Positions 4,470 through 18,866 of a stretch of 64,000 bases of DNA are shown in pieces. Under the pieces are notes generated by a model. That model was not told where the DNA came from, searched no databases, and saw only the letters and a list, made by a program, of their open reading frames with translations. Where the stretch lies: NCBI GenBank assembly GCA_020161395.1, contig JAIUOE010000005.1, positions 124,001 to 188,000 on the forward strand, given 5' to 3'. The position numbers were made by a program, and so were the translations under genes. Each line of letters begins with the position of its first letter. The stretch's first letter is position 1. The stretch is from Bacteroidota bacterium. GTDB taxonomy: Bacteria > Bacteroidota > Ignavibacteria > Ignavibacteriales > Ignavibacteriaceae.

Positions 4470-4503
4470 AAAAAAAAGGTCGCCACCCTCTCGAATGACG
4501 ACC
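4470..4503 (-). terminator. Rho-independent terminator of nrfHA
   Basis: A GGTCG...CGACC hairpin (one mismatched pair inside an 8-bp stem) is followed on the minus strand by a run of eight U. It lies about 50 nt after the nrfA stop codon. An octamer array separates the stop codon from the hairpin. Confidence 0.75.
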
Positions 4504-4509
4504 TAAAAA

Positions 4510-4549
4510 TTATTGCATTATTGGATTATTGCATTACTGCATTATCACA
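4510..4549. repeat. 8-bp tandem array (TTATTGCA-type), 5 units
   Basis: Five head-to-tail octamers: TTATTGCA, TTATTGGA, TTATTGCA, TTACTGCA and TTATCACA. The array abuts the nrfA stop codon and precedes its terminator. Related arrays occur at 33466-33505, 38581-38612 and 62818-62897. Confidence 0.8.
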
Positions 4550-6034
4550 TCAGTAGGCGTATAAAAATCCCTGTCTTTTGCGGGCTTCCTCATCCCACTG
4601 CTTGGCTACAGTTTTCAGGAATTCCTCTTTGTCAGCCATCATGGCTTTTAGATCGAATCCAAGAATCGACTGCGCTTTCGCCTTTGTGGAAAAGTCAGGG
4701 AGCACTACAGGATAAGTTTTCCCGTGCTTAATCAGAATGATAGCGAGTTCCTTTCGTGCTTCTTCAGCTTTAGCAAGAGATGTTCCAACAACACGAAGTG
4801 CTTCAACGGGAGCATGGAAACCAAGTCCGTTTGCAGCAGCCACCCAATCCCATCTCCATTGAGCATGACGGATGAGCTTTAGTGCGGGCTTCATTTCTTC
4901 TGGAGTGGCACCGGCATCCCATGCGGCTTTAGCTTCAAGATGAGCTGATGCTATCGCCTTTTCTGCGATTCTTCTGAGTTCTTCCACTCTGTCCTGTCTG
5001 TCATACACATCCTGAATCAGTTTATCTGCTTCTTCACGGTGGCAAACCTGGCATGAATTTGCCACATTTGCGAGAGGACTTTGAATATGGTGATCAGTGT
5101 ACTTTACACCACCTTCGGACTTGTACGGCATGTGGCAATCGGAGCACGATACGCCTCTTTTTGCGTGGATGCCGGTCATGAAAAGTTCAAAATCAGGGTG
5201 CTGGGCTTTGAGCATCGGAGCTTTTGAAAGCTTGTGCTCCCAATCTTTGTAGTCCATTTTATCATAATATGCTTCCATCGAATCAGCACTGAAACCGTTA
5301 TCCCAGGGGAAGGTCAGGTATTTTCCGTCACCTTTGAAATAATATTCCACATGGCATTGTGCACAAACGAGTGATCTCATTTCCTGTCGTGAAGCTTTTG
5401 TGATATCTTTGCCTCTTCTTTGATATGCTTCCACGAGAGCAGGTCTGGTGATACGAAGATTCATGCTCTTGGGATCATGACAGTCCTGACATCCGATCGG
5501 ATTCACTATTTCCGCTCCTTTGTCTTTCCACTTTCCTTTATAAAAGTCGGTAGCCCCAACTTTATTCATAACTCTCGGCACATCGGTACTCTTGCAGCTC
5601 CAGCAGGTGGCAGGTTGTGGACTCTCTTTCACACCACCGGTTCTTAGAGTCAGGCGGATATCCCTGATTGCATGTCCATGGCCTCTTCCCTGCTTGTAGT
5701 CTTTCGCAAAGGCGTAACCTGCCCACATTATCACCAGTTCGGGGTATTTTTCAAGATAATCTATTTCTTTCGATCCTCCATGCTTGCTCGCAAAACTGGT
5801 ATCGAGTGTTTTCATGTAGGTTTCATATTCACGGGGATAGTTCTCTCCCCATACTTCATTTCTTGGTTCCCAGTCTGCGATTGGTTTAACAGCCTGAAGT
5901 GTGAAGCTTTCGGCTCTCCTCTCGACAATGGTTGAGGCAAAAAGGCCGAGTATAAATACAACTGCAACCGTACCAAGGAAGATTACCCAACCCAGCCACG
6001 GTTTTTCTTTTAATAATTCGGAAACAGGTTTCAT
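4550..6034 (-). CDS. nrfA: Cytochrome c nitrite reductase, catalytic subunit (pentahaem)
   Basis: Reduces nitrite to ammonium with six electrons in the periplasm. The 494-residue protein shows the diagnostic CxxCK catalytic haem site CWSCK (about 144-148) and four CxxCH sites: CQDCH (182-186), CAQCH (224-228), CSDCH (297-301) and CQVCH (328-332). The Gln/His region around HAKRGVSCSDC is typical of NrfA. An uncleaved-looking N-terminal hydrophobic segment (about 14-34) would hold it at the membrane. Its start codon directly follows the nrfH stop, so the pair forms the NrfHA complex that draws electrons from the quinol pool. This indicates respiratory ammonification or nitrite detoxification. 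Identification is secure. Confidence 0.97.
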   Translation of the reverse strand: MKPVSELLKEKPWLGWVIFLGTVAVVFILGLFASTIVERRAESFTLQAVKPIADWEPRNEVWGENYPREYETYMKTLDTSFASKHGGSKEIDYLEKYPELVIMWAGYAFAKDYKQGRGHGHAIRDIRLTLRTGGVKESPQPATCWSCKSTDVPRVMNKVGATDFYKGKWKDKGAEIVNPIGCQDCHDPKSMNLRITRPALVEAYQRRGKDITKASRQEMRSLVCAQCHVEYYFKGDGKYLTFPWDNGFSADSMEAYYDKMDYKDWEHKLSKAPMLKAQHPDFELFMTGIHAKRGVSCSDCHMPYKSEGGVKYTDHHIQSPLANVANSCQVCHREEADKLIQDVYDRQDRVEELRRIAEKAIASAHLEAKAAWDAGATPEEMKPALKLIRHAQWRWDWVAAANGLGFHAPVEALRVVGTSLAKAEEARKELAIILIKHGKTYPVVLPDFSTKAKAQSILGFDLKAMMADKEEFLKTVAKQWDEEARKRQGFLYAY

Positions 6035-6643
6035 TTAGTCCTCTGGTTTCTGGTTTGAAGTGTTGGTTTTAAGCCACTCAGGTACAACGGGAGTAAGTCC
6101 GGGTACTTTTGCATCGGGAGTGGATGACAGGGAATTTACTCTTCCGTGCGGCACATCTCTGTGACAGTCCCAGCAGTAAACTCCTTCCATATCAATGGAT
6201 CTGTTCCCGGCAGCATATCCCCTGTTCGAAATTGGATGTATAGTGTTGTCATGACACCTGATACAATTCGCCTGTACAGCCTGTTTTCCGGCATCTTTTA
6301 TCTTGATCACTTGCGGCTCAAGCCTGAATGTGAACATAAAAGAGTGCCTTAGACCATCCTGGGCTTTGAACATGTATTTGGAGATGATGTTGTCGTGGGG
6401 AACATGACAGTCGTTACAGACGGTTACCCGTCCGTGGCTGCCCTTCTCCCATGTGGCGTAGTAAGAGTTCATTACATGGCAGTTGATACATGCTTCGGGT
6501 TTGTCTGAAGCGTAGGAAAGTGCATTCGAAATGTAAAGGACATGAAAGCCCAGTCCAAAGAAGATGCCAAGCGTAACGATAACAGGAAAACGCCAGTTCG
6601 GGGGTGGAATCAGTAGATTGAGTAACTTTTTTATTACTCTCAT
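6035..6643 (-). CDS. nrfH: Cytochrome c nitrite reductase, quinol-oxidising tetrahaem subunit
   Basis: NapC/NirT-family membrane cytochrome that oxidises quinol and passes electrons to NrfA. The 202-residue protein has one N-terminal membrane helix (about 17-38) and four CxxCH haem sites: CINCH, CNDCH, CIRCH and CWDCH. The spacing and the 'MNSYYATWEKGSHG' block match NrfH. It is the first gene of the operon and abuts nrfA. About 270 bp of AT-rich upstream sequence should hold the promoter; I could not identify a convincing FNR-type site there. Confidence 0.95.
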   Translation of the reverse strand: MRVIKKLLNLLIPPPNWRFPVIVTLGIFFGLGFHVLYISNALSYASDKPEACINCHVMNSYYATWEKGSHGRVTVCNDCHVPHDNIISKYMFKAQDGLRHSFMFTFRLEPQVIKIKDAGKQAVQANCIRCHDNTIHPISNRGYAAGNRSIDMEGVYCWDCHRDVPHGRVNSLSSTPDAKVPGLTPVVPEWLKTNTSNQKPED

Positions 6644-6839
6644 TCCGTTCTTTCCGGTTTGTTAGTTAAATCAGATTTTTAATTCTGCTTAAATCAAAAC
6701 TACAAAAACCAGCAATTGTATGCAAGAAAATTCTTTCGAAATATACAATTTATTTTAGAAATGTAAAGTATTATTTTCAGGATTTTTTCAAAAACTGTCC
6801 GGAACTGGTATAATTCGGACGAAACCGGTGGATATAATT

Positions 6840-6870
6840 AAAAGCTGCCCCGTTTCAGAAGGCAGCTTTT
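6840..6870 (-). terminator. Terminator, U-run on both sides
   Basis: A 10-bp stem AAAAGCTGCC / GGCAGCTTTT with an 11-nt loop. It lies about 45 nt after the stop of the minus-strand gene at 6914-7753, so it most likely terminates that transcript and insulates nrfHA from it. Confidence 0.8.
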
Positions 6871-6913
6871 AAAAATATTAAGATAAACGAGGAGTGCCGG
6901 AGTTGGAAGTCTG

Positions 6914-7753
6914 TTATTTACCGTCCCGGTAAATTCTGTAAACAGTTGTCGTTATTACCTGAGCCAAGGATTCGTCCACATAACTGCCATCGGTTTTTTG
7001 CAACTGTGTCATTAATCCATCCTTGTAGTCGACAACTATCTTGGTACTAAAGCCTTCGCCTCCACCGTCGGACATGCTCCACCTGTCTCTCGTGTCATAG
7101 AGAAGGGCTACACCTGCTTCGTGCCAGCGGACATCCCATGCCCTGCCGTACTCATCGTATTTCCCTTCGTAGCGGTCCATTATCTGCCCGGTCTTTTTTG
7201 CATCTATGAAGTAGTTACCTTCTTTATAAATTTTCCCGACTTTTTGAAGCGCACCTTTTTTATAGGTATAAACGATGTTATCTGCTTTGGTGATCTTACC
7301 GTTTTTGTCTCTGGTGAAGGTACGGATGGTCTTTTTATCCCCTTTAATCTTAACCAGATCTCCTTTTTTGTCATATTCAAAGAAAAGGGAAGAGGATTTG
7401 GTTTTGTTCGATTTCACTCTGTCGTTCACAACAATCGAGACAAGTCTTCCTTCTTTATCGTATTCACAAACAGTGCTGTCGAGGAGATTTTCCTTCTTTT
7501 CATTATCGACAGAAGAAGTTACATGAATTTCCATCATTACCCCCTGCTCCTTGATGGCATTACGATAATATGGCATCAGTTTTTCCCTGATTACGGGATC
7601 AAGCCTGAAATCCGTGATTTTTGTATCATTATATGTACGGACTGCTTCAAAGTCCAATTGCGAATACGGTTCCGTCAGGATAAAATCCTGCGAAAATATT
7701 TTGAATGTGCTGAGAACAAAAAATGTTGCAATTAACAAGAAGTGCCTTCTCAT
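6914..7753 (-). CDS. Secreted YD-repeat-like protein, paralog 2
   Basis: A 279-residue exported protein with a signal peptide ending near FKIFSQ. The mature region contains repeated 'YDKEGRLVS', 'YDKKGDLVKI', 'TRDKNGKITK' and 'YDEYGRAWDV' motifs, typical of YD-like beta repeats. It is a paralog of the gene at 3555-4391, with matching block order and C-terminal end. It has its own terminator at 6840-6870, so it is a separate transcription unit from nrfHA. Function unknown. Its placement beside nrfHA may be only a local duplication split by the operon. Confidence 0.75.
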   Translation of the reverse strand: MRRHFLLIATFFVLSTFKIFSQDFILTEPYSQLDFEAVRTYNDTKITDFRLDPVIREKLMPYYRNAIKEQGVMMEIHVTSSVDNEKKENLLDSTVCEYDKEGRLVSIVVNDRVKSNKTKSSSLFFEYDKKGDLVKIKGDKKTIRTFTRDKNGKITKADNIVYTYKKGALQKVGKIYKEGNYFIDAKKTGQIMDRYEGKYDEYGRAWDVRWHEAGVALLYDTRDRWSMSDGGGEGFSTKIVVDYKDGLMTQLQKTDGSYVDESLAQVITTTVYRIYRDGK

Positions 7754-7832
7754 ATTGCTCCTTTCGATTAGAAGTGATTTTTGGTATTAAATAATGAACA
7801 TCGATAGTAACCAATTAATTTAACGAAGAGTT

Positions 7833-8441
7833 CTAAATCGAAGGCTTCGCAACCAAAGCTCTGAATTCCGATATGCAGACATCCTGCCATCTTTCCCCGG
7901 GTTTAACTCCTCTGCAGATGATTTTCACAGAAGAAGTCAACACTTCCGGAAATTCAATGGTTTGCATACCATCATATACTCTCAGATTGATCTCTCTTCT
8001 GGTCCCATCGGAAAATTCCAGTGTCGCTTCAGTCAAAATGGCATTTTGGTAGTAAAGGTCTCCAAAATATTCGCCCCCGTTTGAATAATTGGGATAGTGT
8101 GCACCGTTTAGAATTTTTATCCCTCTCAACTTTTGTGGCTGACCAAAACGATATTCTATCCATTGACCTGGTCGACTGTCCTCAGGACTCCACCATGAAA
8201 ATTCGTTACCATCGAATGATTTTTCAGCCGGGTAGCTGAAACCGTAACTTGCGGGAAGTGTGGAACTGACATTTGCCCCGACGGGTACAATATCAACCGG
8301 CTGCTCCCCGGTTGCTGAGTCTTTTGCTTCAGACCCCTTCACCGGAAATCCCCCTTTCATAAAAAACAGAAGGAGCACTGTCACCAGTAAAAAAATGGTG
8401 ATCGAAAGAAGAATTATAATAGTCTGGTTTTTCTTTGCCAT
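7833..8441 (-). CDS. Membrane-anchored NADase-type glycan-binding-like (discoidin-like) protein
   Basis: I place the start at ATG 8441 (MAKKNQTI...), giving about 202 residues; the open frame extends to 8582, but the upstream part is unlike protein and precedes the membrane anchor. A hydrophobic helix (about residues 7-27) is followed by a linker and a beta-sandwich-like domain. That domain has the pattern 'S.LP....YS.E.SFDGN...WWSPED..PGQWIEYRF' and 'G I.I.NG..P', close to the NADase-type glycan-binding or F5/8C-like domain. Likely held at the inner membrane with the domain outside. Ligand unknown. Confidence 0.7.
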   Translation of the reverse strand: MAKKNQTIIILLSITIFLLVTVLLLFFMKGGFPVKGSEAKDSATGEQPVDIVPVGANVSSTLPASYGFSYPAEKSFDGNEFSWWSPEDSRPGQWIEYRFGQPQKLRGIKILNGAHYPNYSNGGEYFGDLYYQNAILTEATLEFSDGTRREINLRVYDGMQTIEFPEVLTSSVKIICRGVKPGERWQDVCISEFRALVAKPSI

Positions 8442-8651: not shown

Positions 8652-8854
8652 CATTTTTTTAGATTTTTTTCTACAGTAAATTGGTTTTGCTGAAAGGAAG
8701 CTGCTTATTGAATATCCTTTTTTTATTATTGATTTCTTTTTAAAGTTTCGGAATCGGTGAGTTGCAAATTTTAGGAGGAGATTGTATTTGGCAATTAGCG
8801 AGCAGTGGCGAGTCTGTATTTAAAATCGAACTACTTATATAGTGCGGACGCTTT

Positions 8855-8993
8855 ATGAATCCAAGAGTTGCATCGGTAAAGACCTTGGAAGGTGATAAAC
8901 TCCTTCTGACATTCACTAAAGGTGAACAACGGATATTCGATATGGCTCCCTATCTGGAGATAGGAATTTTCAAAGAGCTAAAAGAAATTTCGA
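8855..8993 (+). pseudogene. DUF2442 protein, 3'-truncated
   Basis: The first 46 residues match the start of DUF2442 proteins (MNPRV.SVK...D.KLLLTF..GE.RIFD..PYLE.GIFKELK). After about position 8993 the frame runs into the antisense of the neighbouring DUF2779 gene and loses all similarity. The remaining half of the domain is missing, so this is a gene fragment created by a rearrangement whose junction lies close to 8994-9003. DUF2442 proteins are often found in mobile or toxin-antitoxin-like contexts. Confidence 0.7.
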
Positions 8994-13255: not shown

Positions 13256-14203
13256 TCAGCTAAAAACTTTTTGCATCTGACCTAAAATTATTTTACGATA
13301 AGACTCCTTATCCGTTTCATTCAGGAAACTTTTTTCGATTATATCAGAGAATTTACTTTGCAATCCGGCAAATCTATCATGGATTTTGTGAACTATATTT
13401 CGGTCGATACTCAATGAATCTGCAAATGACATGAAATCCTTAAGTTTCAAATTACTTTTCTTTCCGTTCAGTGTCAAGGCGCGATCTTCGGGATCATCGG
13501 TTATTATTAATTTTGTATTTACAAGATCATAAGCAGGTGAGAGTGATATTTCATTGTTTACTGATCTAAGCAGTGAAAAATTCTTTAGGTGCATATCAGC
13601 ATTCCCGGTGAGAAATGAGAACAGAGTCAACTCATAAAATGAGACGAGATCGTTTCCCGGAAAGTCTGAATATTTTGTAATAATTTTCCCGATTTTCTCG
13701 TACGATCCTTTATATTTTCTCGCCGTCAACACTTCCGTAAGTTGTGCCATATCCTCCAGGCAGAGTTTGATTCCGTTTTGCCTGTCAAATCGTTTGGAAA
13801 TATATGCAAACTCTCCTGATTTTAGAGGAATCAAAGAGTGTCTGGCTGTCTTAATCCCTGCGACCTCTGCCAAATGCATTGTTAAATCTTCATTTTGAGG
13901 CAAATCATGATATTTCTCAAATGGCGGCTTAAAAATATAACTTCCCCAGAGCCCGACTACTGTCAACCTTAATCTATTCTTACCAATTCTTTCTGTTTCA
14001 AGCGACATTTTTGGTTGAACACCGGTTACCGAGAGGTTTTTCCCCAGATATTTAAGAGCCAATTCTTCAATATCTCCAAGATTAAAGTCAATCTCAGGAG
14101 GAAATTTTGAATCAAAAATCTCTTTACTGCATTTCGGGTGGTAGATTAATTCCGGTTCAAGCACCGGTTCATAACAGAATAAACACTTACGATTATTGGT
14201 CAT
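13256..14203 (-). CDS. hipT: HipT-like Ser/Thr kinase toxin
   Basis: Kinase subunit of a three-gene HipBST module. The frame is open from 14215, but ATG 14203 (MTNNRKCLF) has GAGGTG 5-7 nt upstream, giving 315 residues. An N-terminal C-x2-C...H-x2-C cluster (CLFC...YHPKC) is usual for stand-alone HipT proteins. 'LSVTGVQPKMS' is the Ser/Thr-containing Gly-rich loop, the site of autophosphorylation in the family. 'YISKRFDR' follows, then the catalytic loop 'GNADMHLKN' and the metal site 'SPAYD'. All key kinase residues are present, so it looks active. Known HipA/HipT proteins phosphorylate aminoacyl-tRNA synthetases; the target here is not known. It overlaps hipS by 11 nt. Confidence 0.9.
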   Translation of the reverse strand: MTNNRKCLFCYEPVLEPELIYHPKCSKEIFDSKFPPEIDFNLGDIEELALKYLGKNLSVTGVQPKMSLETERIGKNRLRLTVVGLWGSYIFKPPFEKYHDLPQNEDLTMHLAEVAGIKTARHSLIPLKSGEFAYISKRFDRQNGIKLCLEDMAQLTEVLTARKYKGSYEKIGKIITKYSDFPGNDLVSFYELTLFSFLTGNADMHLKNFSLLRSVNNEISLSPAYDLVNTKLIITDDPEDRALTLNGKKSNLKLKDFMSFADSLSIDRNIVHKIHDRFAGLQSKFSDIIEKSFLNETDKESYRKIILGQMQKVFS

Positions 14204-14528
14204 CAGGCACCTCATCGGGAATTATACTTACGGCACCAATGCAATCCCTGCAACACAACAGAAGAAGACTCATCCTGTCTGCCTGATCAATTTTCCAATT
14301 ATGGGATACCAGGTCCAACAACCATCCCTCCGGAATCAATCCGTCAAAAAACGGGAACAGAATATTGCTTTTGTAAGTTTTCTCCGTGAGTGGAAGCGTC
14401 AGACTTACCGGCAGTGACTCCTTCGATTGAAGATATGCGTTGTCATATTTAAAAAAGTATCCTTCTTCGCTCTCTTCTATCATTCCTGCAAAAATCTCCC
14501 GAAAATAAACCTTGCCCCGTTTAATCAT
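14193..14528 (-). CDS. hipS: HipS-like protein (stand-alone HipA N-terminal subdomain)
   Basis: A 111-residue protein equal to the N-terminal subdomain of HipA: 'GKVYFREIFAGMIEES..GYFFKYD', 'LPVSLTLPLTEKTY', 'LFPFFDGLIPEGWLLDLV' and 'DCIGAVSII'. Start ATG 14528 follows AGAGG by 8 nt and overlaps the end of hipB by 8 nt (ATGATTAA); its own end overlaps hipT. In characterised HipBST modules this small protein, not HipB, neutralises the kinase. That role is inferred here from the same gene order and the split of the HipA protein. Confidence 0.88.
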   Translation of the reverse strand: MIKRGKVYFREIFAGMIEESEEGYFFKYDNAYLQSKESLPVSLTLPLTEKTYKSNILFPFFDGLIPEGWLLDLVSHNWKIDQADRMSLLLLCCRDCIGAVSIIPDEVPDDQ

Positions 14529-14742
14529 TTGAATCACCTCTTATGATCTTTGCGGGACGCAGTTCATGTCCAAAAAGATAAAGCACTTTGTTCACTTTAT
14601 CCATTTGGAGAGATTTCTTTCCCTGTTCCAACTCTCGCAGAAAACGCAAACCAACGCCTGCTCTCATGGCGAGCTCTACCTGGGTATAACCAAGGTACTT
14701 TCGTTTTTTCTTCACAAATTCAGGAAGACTTTCAGTCGACAT
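14521..14742 (-). CDS. hipB: HipB-like XRE-family DNA-binding protein
   Basis: A 73-residue protein with one helix-turn-helix: 'VKKKRKYLGYTQVELAMRAGVGLRFLRELEQGKKSLQMDKVNKVL' is the XRE/HipB pattern. It is the first gene of the hipB-hipS-hipT order and overlaps hipS. It should bind the three repeats upstream (14771-14869) and autoregulate the operon. Start ATG 14742 is preceded by GGAA at a usable distance. Confidence 0.9.
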   Translation of the reverse strand: MSTESLPEFVKKKRKYLGYTQVELAMRAGVGLRFLRELEQGKKSLQMDKVNKVLYLFGHELRPAKIIRGDSND

Positions 14743-14770
14743 ATATATTCCAAATTACTTGTCCGTAAAA

Positions 14771-14869
14771 TATACCTTTTCGGGTATAAATGCAACAATT
14801 AATTTATTTTTATACCTGTGCGGGTGTAATTTTTCCCTGAAGGTAGCTATTTATACCCGAGCGGGGGTA
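14771..14869. promoter_or_regulatory. Three HipB-type operator repeats between hipBST and the ADP-ribosylglycohydrolase
   Basis: Three 18-bp palindromes of type TATACC-N5-GGGTATA lie at 14771-14788, 14811-14828 and 14852-14869, with starts 40-41 bp apart (about four helical turns). They sit just upstream of hipB on one side and 144 bp before the divergent gene at 15014 on the other. They are very likely the binding sites of HipB and could control both directions. Confidence 0.8.
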
Positions 14870-15013: not shown

Positions 15014-15841
15014 ATGTTGTCTGAACTATCAACTCTTCAACAGAAATGCCGCGAGAAAGACATCAAACTATTTGGTGCCATCTCCGGTGATGTAATCGGA
15101 TCAGATTATGAGTTTGCCGGGATAAAATATTACGATTTTAATCTTTTCCCCCCAAATTCCAACTACACGGACGATTCAGTCCTCACTATAGCAACAGCAA
15201 GTAAACTAATTCTCTCAAGCGACTATTCGACTGAATACCGCAACTTCGGAGCAAAATACCCAAACCCCAAAGGGGCTTATGGTAACAATTTCAGGATGTG
15301 GTTACGAAACCCTGACGCGGTGCCATTAACCAGCTTTGGAAATGGCTCGGCAATGAGGGTGAGTCCGGTGGGGTATGCCTTCAAGACAATCGAAGAAACT
15401 CTCCTTGAAGCAAAGAGAAGCGCCGAAGTTTCCCATGCTCATCCCGAAGGAATTAAAGGAGCACAAGCTACCGCTGCCGCTGTTTTTCTTGCAAGAACCG
15501 GGAGTTCAAAAGAGATTATCAAGGAGTTTATCTCTACCACCTTTCAGTATGATTTGGAGAGAACCTGTGACGAAATACGCCCGAAATACCGATTTGACCC
15601 CTCATGTCAAGGTACGGTCCCCGAATCAATTATTGCATTCCTCGAAAGTAAAGATTTTGAGGATGCCATCCGCCTCACTATCTCCCTCGGAGGAGATTCC
15701 GATACGATGGGAGCTATAACAGGTGCAATTGCGGAGGCGTTCTACGGTGAAGTGCCCCAGTCAATCAAAAGGAAAGTAGTTGAATTGCTTCCTCTCGAAT
15801 TTCTTGATATTATTCTGAAATTTAATACGAAATTCATGTAG
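15014..15841 (+). CDS. ADP-ribosylglycohydrolase (ARH/DraG family)
   Basis: Removes ADP-ribose from modified proteins, nucleic acids or small molecules. The 275-residue protein starts at ATG 15014 with GGAGG 7 nt upstream. The binuclear Mg site is complete: 'GAISGDVIGS' (21-30), 'YTDDS' (51-55: Thr52, Asp53, Asp54) and 'GGDSDTMGAITGAIAEAFYG' (226-245: Asp228, Asp230, Thr231). 'GNGSAMRVSP' and 'SHAHPEGIKGA' also match the family. It is divergent from hipBST across the operator cluster. It could reverse a modification made by a mobile toxin or by phage; this is inference. Confidence 0.92.
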   Translation: MLSELSTLQQKCREKDIKLFGAISGDVIGSDYEFAGIKYYDFNLFPPNSNYTDDSVLTIATASKLILSSDYSTEYRNFGAKYPNPKGAYGNNFRMWLRNPDAVPLTSFGNGSAMRVSPVGYAFKTIEETLLEAKRSAEVSHAHPEGIKGAQATAAAVFLARTGSSKEIIKEFISTTFQYDLERTCDEIRPKYRFDPSCQGTVPESIIAFLESKDFEDAIRLTISLGGDSDTMGAITGAIAEAFYGEVPQSIKRKVVELLPLEFLDIILKFNTKFM

Positions 15842-15959
15842 ATTTTCCCATTTCAAAATAATTTTACATTCATTAAGACAGATAAACATGATCTTCCTGT
15901 TTTGAATAATTGAAGCGATGGTCTCCGAGTAGTGTTAAAGTTCAGAAGAAAGTGTAATT

Positions 15960-16107
15960 TCATACTGGAAAAGTATCCTTCTTCACGCTTTTCCATAATT
16001 CGCAAAGACTATGGATGACATAACATTCCATATTACTCATTTATAAAATTTACCTTTTCGGGTATAGATGAAAACAAGAAATTTATTTTTATACCCGAGC
16101 TGGTATA
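15960..16107 (-). pseudogene. Decayed second hip copy (hipS fragment plus operators)
   Basis: Between about 15967 and 16000 the minus strand encodes 'IMEKREEGYF', matching 'GMIEESEEGYF' of hipS, and the DNA match GTATCCTTCTTC is shared with 14459-14470. It is followed directly by a copy of the hipB upstream region, including operator repeats at 16049-16066 and 16090-16107 spaced 41 bp, as in the intact locus. hipB and most of hipS are deleted. The rest of the 15842-16216 gap shows nothing else. Confidence 0.7.
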
Positions 16108-16216
16108 GAATCTCCCAAATCTTTTACCTGTATCCTTCACTCCTGTTAAATCGATTTGCTTATCTCAATCCAAATATTTAAGTTTCAACTCAATATTAAT
16201 TATTTGCAGGCAAGAG

Positions 16217-18091
16217 ATGAAAAAGTTGATAGCAGCAATATTTATTGCATCAACAGTACTGGCACAAGCCCCTTGGCAGGATCCGGGGTTAAAGATAGAG
16301 TACGCCCTTTCACACAATAATTCCACTTCAATCTTCTACCGTGACTACACTTCCACAACGAATAACAACGACCTCGTTTTCGAAAACAAACTGTACCGAA
16401 AGAATATTAATTCAGGCGAAGAAACACTTCTTTTTAGCAGCAAAACGGTTTATTCAGGTACAAATCTTCTCTCAAAAGTGGATGCGGAATTTCTCTCATT
16501 TTCATCGGAGCATCCCGACAGCTTTTATATAGCAGGACAAATTTCAAGTGATTCCACGGGAGCATTTGTAAAAGGGAAGGAAATTAATGTATTCCATCCA
16601 AACAAAATAATTGAGTTCTTCTTTGCCTCAAAACAGACTCCTGGAAAATTTTATGTGAAAATCGATGGTGCTTACAAAGTTTCGTATGATTACTGCAAGA
16701 CCTTTCAGATTCTCCACCAGGTTGAGCGATTCATCTGCATCTCCCCTTTCAATGACAACGAAGTAATTGCCTGGAATTCGGGTGGTATTGTCCGGTCAAT
16801 TGACGGAGGAATCAATTATACAGCTCTTTATCAGCCGACATGGTCGTATGATTCTGTATCAGTATCTTATACTCGTGACAGTTCATTCCTGTTACTAACC
16901 TCCCGCTCTATTTATGACTGGATGAACGAAATAAAGTATTCAACGCAGGCAGGAAGTGCCGGAACATTCAATTCGGCACTTAATAATTTTTTTGGAACTA
17001 TGCATGTAATTCCTTATAAATCCCCTTCTGACAGCATTTATTTTTATAGAGCAGATACGCTTTTCAGCAAAAAACTGGGAGCACCGGTTTTATCAGGGCA
17101 AAAGGTGTCAAATATATTTGATACCAGAATTACGGGCTCATCTGCGATAACAGGATCGACCGATCTGTTCATTTCAACCACCAATAAGATATTCAAAAAA
17201 ACAGGAAATGTCTATGAAGAAGTGAAATGGATTACCACTCCATTGCCAGAACCTGATTTTTACCCGTTGCACATAGGTGATTTTTGGGTATACAAGGTGA
17301 CAGGCTGGTGGGCTGATACTTTTTGGTATCCCATTGACTATACAACCGTCACTCGTGTGATGAGAGATACCCTTGTACCGGGCTGGGGCAAGTTTTTTGT
17401 TTCTGACAGATTTAATTCAAATCCCAATTTCCCAAAGCTCGAGATGAAGAAAGATAACGGGAAAATATACGAATTAATAAAGTGGGGATCGGATACAACC
17501 CACAATATATTATTGACTGAAGACAATTCACTTCTAGAGGGAGATGTGTCCGATATGAGTGTTTTAGGATCCGGGAATATCTACTGCCGGGTTTCAGATA
17601 TCAGTTACAAAGAACATTTTGGTAAAATGCGTGCCACCAGAGAACTTGACATATATTCTTTATATTGGTATCTGGTGAGATCGGTTGATGGTGTTGGGAT
17701 TGTGGAGGCAAGGTCTTCATTTGATTTCGGAGAAGAGATTTTCAAATTGACGGGTGCTTATGTAAATGGAGTGGTATATGGTGACACTACAACAACCGAC
17801 ATTGTGGATGAGGAACAAACACCACAAACATTCAAGGTAAGCCAAAACTTCCCGAACCCGTTTAATGGCAGTACAAAAATCAGTTTTTCACTTCCCGCAT
17901 CCGGGGAAGTGGTGGTAAGAATATTCAATATCCTTGGACAGGAAGTGATGAGGATAAATCCCGGAAACCTACCGGCGGGCAAAAATGAAGTTTCACTCAC
18001 CATGCCGGCACAATTCAATTCCGGAGTTTATCTTTGCCGTTTGGAATTCGGAGATAAAGCGGAGACCAGGAAGATTATTTATTTGAAGTAA
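16217..18091 (+). CDS. Secreted protein with C-terminal sorting domain
   Basis: A 624-residue exported protein. A signal peptide (about 1-18, ending LAQA) is followed by a long beta-rich region that resembles a beta-propeller with exo-alpha-sialidase/BNR-like strands ('SIDGGINY', 'YKVSYDYCKTFQIL'). The C-terminal about 85 residues form the sorting domain: 'SQNFPNPFNGSTKISFSLP', 'VRIFNILGQEV', 'GVYLCRLEFG' and a terminal KIIYLK. This domain type directs proteins to the cell surface through the type IX route in related phyla. The two leftover hip operators lie 110-168 bp upstream and may affect its expression. Confidence 0.85.
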   Translation: MKKLIAAIFIASTVLAQAPWQDPGLKIEYALSHNNSTSIFYRDYTSTTNNNDLVFENKLYRKNINSGEETLLFSSKTVYSGTNLLSKVDAEFLSFSSEHPDSFYIAGQISSDSTGAFVKGKEINVFHPNKIIEFFFASKQTPGKFYVKIDGAYKVSYDYCKTFQILHQVERFICISPFNDNEVIAWNSGGIVRSIDGGINYTALYQPTWSYDSVSVSYTRDSSFLLLTSRSIYDWMNEIKYSTQAGSAGTFNSALNNFFGTMHVIPYKSPSDSIYFYRADTLFSKKLGAPVLSGQKVSNIFDTRITGSSAITGSTDLFISTTNKIFKKTGNVYEEVKWITTPLPEPDFYPLHIGDFWVYKVTGWWADTFWYPIDYTTVTRVMRDTLVPGWGKFFVSDRFNSNPNFPKLEMKKDNGKIYELIKWGSDTTHNILLTEDNSLLEGDVSDMSVLGSGNIYCRVSDISYKEHFGKMRATRELDIYSLYWYLVRSVDGVGIVEARSSFDFGEEIFKLTGAYVNGVVYGDTTTTDIVDEEQTPQTFKVSQNFPNPFNGSTKISFSLPASGEVVVRIFNILGQEVMRINPGNLPAGKNEVSLTMPAQFNSGVYLCRLEFGDKAETRKIIYLK

Positions 18092-18137
18092 CCGGTATAA
18101 AGGATTTTCAAGCTAATATACAAAGTTTGCCGGCGAA

Positions 18138-18326
18138 TTAGTGCTCAATATCCGATACTGCATTCTTTTTTTGATTCAAGCTTTTTTCCTTGTTCACATG
18201 CTCCAATTTTTTAGCTCTTTCAGCCCAAAACATAATCTCTTCTTCCAAAGTCAATTTTGCTAACTTTTTTTGCAAAATTCTGGCTCCTTTTCTTTTCATT
18301 TCAACACAATCGAATGGCTTATCCAT
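18138..18326 (-). CDS. Small antitoxin-like partner of the PIN protein
   Basis: A 62-residue charged protein: 'FDCVEMKRKGARILQKKLAKLTLEEEIMFWAERAKKL'. This pattern is common in small proteins encoded next to PIN-domain toxins. It starts at ATG 18326, with GGAGG 9 nt upstream, and overlaps the end of the PIN gene by 8 nt (ATGGATAA), which couples their translation. The gene order is toxin first, antitoxin second. The antitoxin role is inferred from this pairing. Confidence 0.75.
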   Translation of the reverse strand: MDKPFDCVEMKRKGARILQKKLAKLTLEEEIMFWAERAKKLEHVNKEKSLNQKKNAVSDIEH

Positions 18327-18777
18327 AGTTTATCACCTCCAATGGAGAATAAATGGCTATCGGTTGATAACCATTTACCAGATTAATTGAATTGTATAAT
18401 GGAATTTTATCAAAATGAACGATATGCTTAAAATTCCAACTGAGAATTACAGGACAATTATTAACAGTAGCGATTGCAACATGGAGAGCATCGTTGGAGC
18501 TTTTTTTCGTAACAACATTTGCCTTCAAATAACATTCACGAAGTCTGATTGCATTTTCGTCAACACCAATAATAACTACATCCTGATAGATTTCTTTGAA
18601 AAATTCTCGAACCATCTCCGGAGCAGCTGTCAACTCCTCTTCAACAAGATCAGAGATAACTATTTGGAATCGACCATCCTCAACTTGATTAAAAAACTTT
18701 TTTGTTGGATTCGAAAATTCTGAATCGAACACTCCACCGATAATGGATGTGTCCACATAGACTTTTATTTTTTTCAT
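18319..18777 (-). CDS. PIN-domain ribonuclease toxin
   Basis: A 152-residue PIN-domain protein. The metal-binding acidic residues are visible: Asp9 in 'VYVDTSIIGG', Glu47/Glu48 in 'DLVEEELT' and Asp96 in 'SSNDALHVA', with Asn115 in 'SWNFKHIV'. PIN toxins of this type cleave RNA. The overlapping downstream gene encodes the likely antitoxin. The pair stands alone between a secreted-protein gene and the iron-uptake operon. Confidence 0.88.
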   Translation of the reverse strand: MKKIKVYVDTSIIGGVFDSEFSNPTKKFFNQVEDGRFQIVISDLVEEELTAAPEMVREFFKEIYQDVVIIGVDENAIRLRECYLKANVVTKKSSNDALHVAIATVNNCPVILSWNFKHIVHFDKIPLYNSINLVNGYQPIAIYSPLEVINYG

Positions 18778-18866
18778 AAATGCAAAAGTTTAATTGGAAA
18801 ATTTAGCAAATTATAATTTAAAATAACGCTTATCCTTTTAGAAATAAGAAGAACTGTTTTCTACCT

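Follow-up and report, generated by a model that had tools for sequence, protein, structure and literature searches.

Evidence for a decayed second hipBST locus whose predicted operators remain upstream of a surface-protein gene in an Ignavibacteriaceae bacterium

Introduction

In HipBST members elsewhere, HipT is reported to phosphorylate tryptophanyl-tRNA synthetase and HipS to neutralise HipT. The HipBST toxin-antitoxin (TA) system was described in PMC6581861. In Legionella, its operators are three 18-nt inverted repeats with six-nt arms, evenly spaced with 53-bp gaps, the first of which overlaps the promoter, and they are bound by HipB in gel shifts (PMC10653801). The only other place in L. 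pneumophila where the operator motif was found is ahead of a duplicated pentapartite system (PMC10653801). For E. coli K-12, an action of HipB at the relA, eutH and fadH promoters has been reported (Lin et al., 2013, cited in PMC3920263). In the body of literature that we searched, no report on orphan operators of antitoxins was found.

Here, we analysed a stretch of 64,000 nucleotides from an Ignavibacteriaceae genome (the window), which carries an intact hipBST locus and, ahead of a gene for a secreted protein, two further operator-like repeats (Table 1).

Results

The intact hipBST locus and its operator array

The region 13256-14742 encodes a split HipA, with HipS as the N-terminal subdomain and HipT as the kinase core, preceded by the helix-turn-helix protein HipB, and the genes overlap in the order hipB-hipS-hipT. 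Both this order and the HTH, Couple_hipA and HipA_C proteins are as in the HipBST systems of E. coli O127:H6 and Legionella pneumophila. Upstream of hipB, we found regularly spaced 18-bp inverted repeats, one of which overlaps the predicted promoter, an arrangement shared with Legionella. However, the repeat is TATACC-N6-GGTATA here, and the three sites lie 40 and 41 bp apart from start to start, whereas the Legionella operators are separated by 53-bp gaps.

Two to four copies of the same repeat precede hipB in 19 other genomes of the order, and the footprint upstream of the resulting 20 hipB genes has a spacing of nearly always 40-41 bp. The -33/-7 spacer of a promoter-like pair, TTG-N19-21-TAnnTTTG, contains an operator in 13 of these 20 upstream regions (4.6% expected by chance), and the recognition-helix region of HipB, GVGLRF[LIV]R[ED], is nearly invariant among 21 homologs. 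Judged from these sequences, the predicted HipBST operator array is conserved across this bacterial order, which points to a DNA-binding code of HipBST systems beyond Legionella. For Bacteroidetes, the -7 element is described as TAnnTTTG, and we infer that this form is in use in the related lineage studied here.

Table 1. Features of the intact hipBST locus, the putative relic and the surface-protein gene (positions in the window)
Feature	Position	Strand	Evidence or remark
Intact hipT (HipA_C)	13256..14215	-	Pfam
Intact hipS (Couple_hipA)	14193..14537	-	Pfam
Intact hipB (HTH_3)	14521..14742	-	Pfam; G003 ortholog 95% identical
Native operator 1	14771..14788		within hipB promoter spacer; matrix score 25.6
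Native operator 2	14811..14828		matrix score 21.9
Native operator 3	14852..14869		matrix score 18.9
ADP-ribosylglycohydrolase-like gene, between native and orphan operator clusters	15014..15841	+	PF03747, E 2.4e-31
hipS remnant, codons ~18-33, no open frame	15955..16001	-	aligns to 14438-14485
ATTC deletion junction; 236 bp (hipB and hipS 5' end) gone	15998..16001		offsets, shared ATTC
hipB start remnant (about 7 codons) and leader	16002..16048	-	aligns to 14722-14770
Orphan HipB operator 1 (predicted), TTTACCTTTTCGGGTATA	16049..16066		matrix score 19.9, rank 4 in window
Orphan HipB operator 2 (predicted), TATACCCGAGCTGGTATA, perfect arms	16090..16107		matrix score 22.5, rank 2 in window
Predicted surface-gene promoter TTTG, N20, TAAGTTTC	16155..16186	+	consensus match, conserved in G003
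Secreted protein, Por_Secre_tail sorting domain, 624 aa	16217..18091	+	Pfam E 1.7e-8; G003 ortholog 93% identical

The relic of a second locus

The original prediction was of a second hip locus that had decayed and left orphan operators before the surface-protein gene, and this part was borne out by collinear alignments over hipS, the hipB start, the leader and the operators. Positions 15955-16005 align with intact hipS at 14438-14485 (p ~1e-6 against dinucleotide shuffles), so that the similarity to the intact locus is significant beyond the repeats; the same piece is also seen as repeat D4 (85% over 33 nt). It had been taken for the start of hipS, which holds in so far as it derives from early hipS, but it covers codons ~18-33 and not the very first codons. 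The operator side, 16020-16116, aligns with the leader and operators of intact hipB (p ~3e-9), and the two sides jointly reach p ~4e-10, both again against dinucleotide shuffles. A short hipB start is kept at 16002-16021 (alignment of 16002-16045, p ~1e-3).

The offset between relic and intact locus is 1516 on the left side and 1280 on the right, which indicates a 236-bp deletion in the relic. The junction falls at an ATTC microhomology that is present in both hipS (14482-14485) and hipB (14718-14721). A deletion between two ATTC copies took out the 5' end of hipS along with most of hipB, and what was left of the second locus decayed, apart from two operators with their leader. No open reading frame is left in the relic, only short hipS and hipB pieces, and with functional hipB, hipS and hipT genes lacking, 15955-16116 was classified as a pseudogene relic. 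No homology to the rest of hipS or hipT was detected in 15842-15954 (p 0.67), nor did local alignment show any rightwards of 16116, while an alignment there that took the native operator 3 flank as its anchor was borderline (p ~0.03). These alignments strongly support the interpretation of 15955-16116 as what is left of a second hipBST locus after decay.

A recent tandem duplication of the present hip locus is not favoured, since outside the operator cores the relic differs from the intact locus at 29 of 90 positions and is at least as divergent as the intact copies of the two species are from each other (24 of 91). The other hip locus of this genome, at C5:254089, was rejected as the source of the relic; its HipB is divergent (32%) and no TATACC-type sites lie nearby. 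This divergent locus, at about 4012-4901 of L145 (G000:C5:250000-258000), has a HipT match that covers residues 142-306 only and thus looks truncated, too.

Predicted binding of HipB to the orphan operators

Both operator repeats were recovered as predicted, 41 bp apart from start to start, as in the native array, and 109-168 bp ahead of the start codon at 16217. A weight matrix was built from 52 operator sites of other species, with this genome and the congener G003 left out. The five best matches in the 64-kb window were the three native and the two orphan sites, beyond which the score fell to 7.8, and the orphan scores lie within the native range. This ranking far above the rest, together with the conserved recognition helix, makes it likely that HipB from the intact locus 1.3 kb away can still bind the orphan sites much as it would its own operators, and the scores are compatible with HipB binding at the 16217 gene. 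In a whole-genome search for further orphan sites, a perfect site at C1:495338 was dismissed as a chance occurrence; it is unpaired and sits within a coding frame of 680 aa.

A predicted promoter of the surface-protein gene

On the plus strand of 15842-16217, a single promoter-like match was found, that listed in Table 1 (chance ~2.7% per 100 bp); it is a putative promoter by consensus match and lies wholly within a 63-bp leader that is 95% identical in G003. The G003 ortholog has the same promoter-like leader with no operators before it, so the apparent promoter is kept there without them. Moreover, 47 bp separate the end of the orphan operators from the predicted promoter downstream, which they do not overlap, in contrast to the arrangement at hipB. 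For the relic's own promoter, which would read leftwards, no match was found on that strand.

Directly 3' of the surface-protein gene (18113-18859), a PIN-domain gene (18319-18777) and a small partner (18138-18326) form a likely VapBC-type pair. This pair is absent from G003, where its flanks are about 20 bp apart.

A variable island in the congener G003

Window positions 4470-8099 and those from 16154 onwards are collinear in G003 (88-93%), while the stretch between differs. The relic is not present in G003, and since the left edge of the conserved block, 16154, lies 38 bp past the relic end, the relic marks the right-hand end of a variable island. G003 keeps hipB (95%) and three operator-like sites, but a type IIG restriction-modification gene is found where hipS and hipT would be, and the divergent gene is also different. 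In this arrangement (8297-11413 of L143, G003:C1:1756000-1772000), the HipB and its operators stand ahead of the restriction-modification gene, which gives the impression that the antitoxin has turned into, or survived as, a controller of another defence gene. DUF2442-type genes with 71% similar DNA are located at one edge of the island in this genome and at the opposite edge in G003 (window 8707-8988 and L143 5799-6059) and perhaps mark an island rearrangement.

Retention of operators in HipB-free genomes

When only columns with identical bases in the two intact copies are counted, the relic is changed at 2 of 24 operator core positions and at 20 of 67 others (Fisher p 0.028), a test that leans towards constraint since some of the non-core changes may have occurred on the intact lineage. 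A paired-site search of 164 genomes returned pairs in 17, while a reversed control pattern gave no matches, and all loci examined were at intact or decayed hip loci. Among them, G066 (two perfect sites) and G028 and G112 (three sites each) carry operators beside a truncated hipT. Neither hipB nor hipS was found at these three loci, and no HipB relative was detected in the three genomes at E <= 0.001 (best 0.015).

In the HipB-free G028, the cores are conserved alike (2 of 35 against 20 of 63 positions), with the caveats for these controls that HipB-free relics may be younger, that G028 and G112 probably represent one event and that G112 is only about 90% complete. Low core divergence was rejected as proof of selection, since the HipB-free control gave the same pattern. 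As operators can outlive the repressor, their persistence is not evidence of recruitment.

Discussion

We consider it probable that the region is a fossil TA locus with orphan operators that are predicted to be bindable but to have no regulatory effect on the 16217 gene. The absence of an effect is expected because the surface-protein gene, as judged from motif and conservation, seems to be read from a separate promoter that lies downstream of the relic, and because the relic's promoter would have pointed the opposite way and has lost its consensus match. Occupancy of the orphan sites by HipB would then most likely have no regulatory consequence beyond a slight titration of HipB. Against this reading, the lower core change could be explained by selection, and repressors can act from upstream. 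It appears unlikely that HipB on the fossil operators alters the expression of a neighbour in vivo, whether by acting from upstream on the surface-protein gene or via a loop between the clusters on the ADP-ribosylglycohydrolase gene, and thereby turns a dead TA locus into a cis-regulatory element.

The recruitment of HipB at 16049-16107 as a regulator of the surface-protein gene, as originally proposed, is quite unlikely. It would resemble the reported action of E. coli K-12 HipB at non-TA promoters (PMC3920263, citing earlier work), in that HipB-type sites precede genes that have no relation to the TA operon, and two high-scoring sites at native spacing with cores that changed less than their flanks are consistent with it. 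While such recruitment is reasonable in principle given the precedents, the local anatomy speaks against it: the same promoter region is found without operators in G003, the sites lie at least 47 bp upstream of the -33 box, unlike the native geometry, and operators are retained equally in genomes that lack HipB. In contrast to the E. coli case, the sites here are leftovers of a hip locus, located off the predicted promoter, and any regulation is only putative.

It is very doubtful that the orphan and native clusters, 1.28 kb apart, are bridged, or together titrate HipB, and so alter expression of hipBST or of the ADP-ribosylglycohydrolase gene. Operator clusters do flank this gene on both sides, and two sites are added to the three native ones, but the arrangement is not conserved in G003, which has a different divergent gene and no relic. 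The possibility that the similarity arose by chance or reflects an unrelated promoter repeat, without any second hip locus, is practically negligible: although the motif alone occurs once inside a coding sequence, apparently by chance (C1:495338), this explanation is contradicted by the joint collinear alignment and by the native-spacing pairs of the 164-genome search, which the reversed control did not match and which, where examined, lie at intact or decayed hip loci.

The fossil reading gives a concrete picture of the death of a TA locus, in which toxin and antitoxin genes go and the operators stay behind as fossils that are predicted to be bindable, with the same outcome in at least two other lineages of the order. 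In L. pneumophila, by contrast, the motif otherwise occurs only before the duplicated pentapartite system, whereas the orphan pair described here is left over from a decayed copy. Such operator fossils may be raw material for regulatory rewiring, and HipB-free genomes provide the control that separates recruitment from inertia. Another outcome of hip-locus decay is seen at L116 and L125, where, with no detectable hipS or hipT nearby, hipB has been kept together with its operator arrays.
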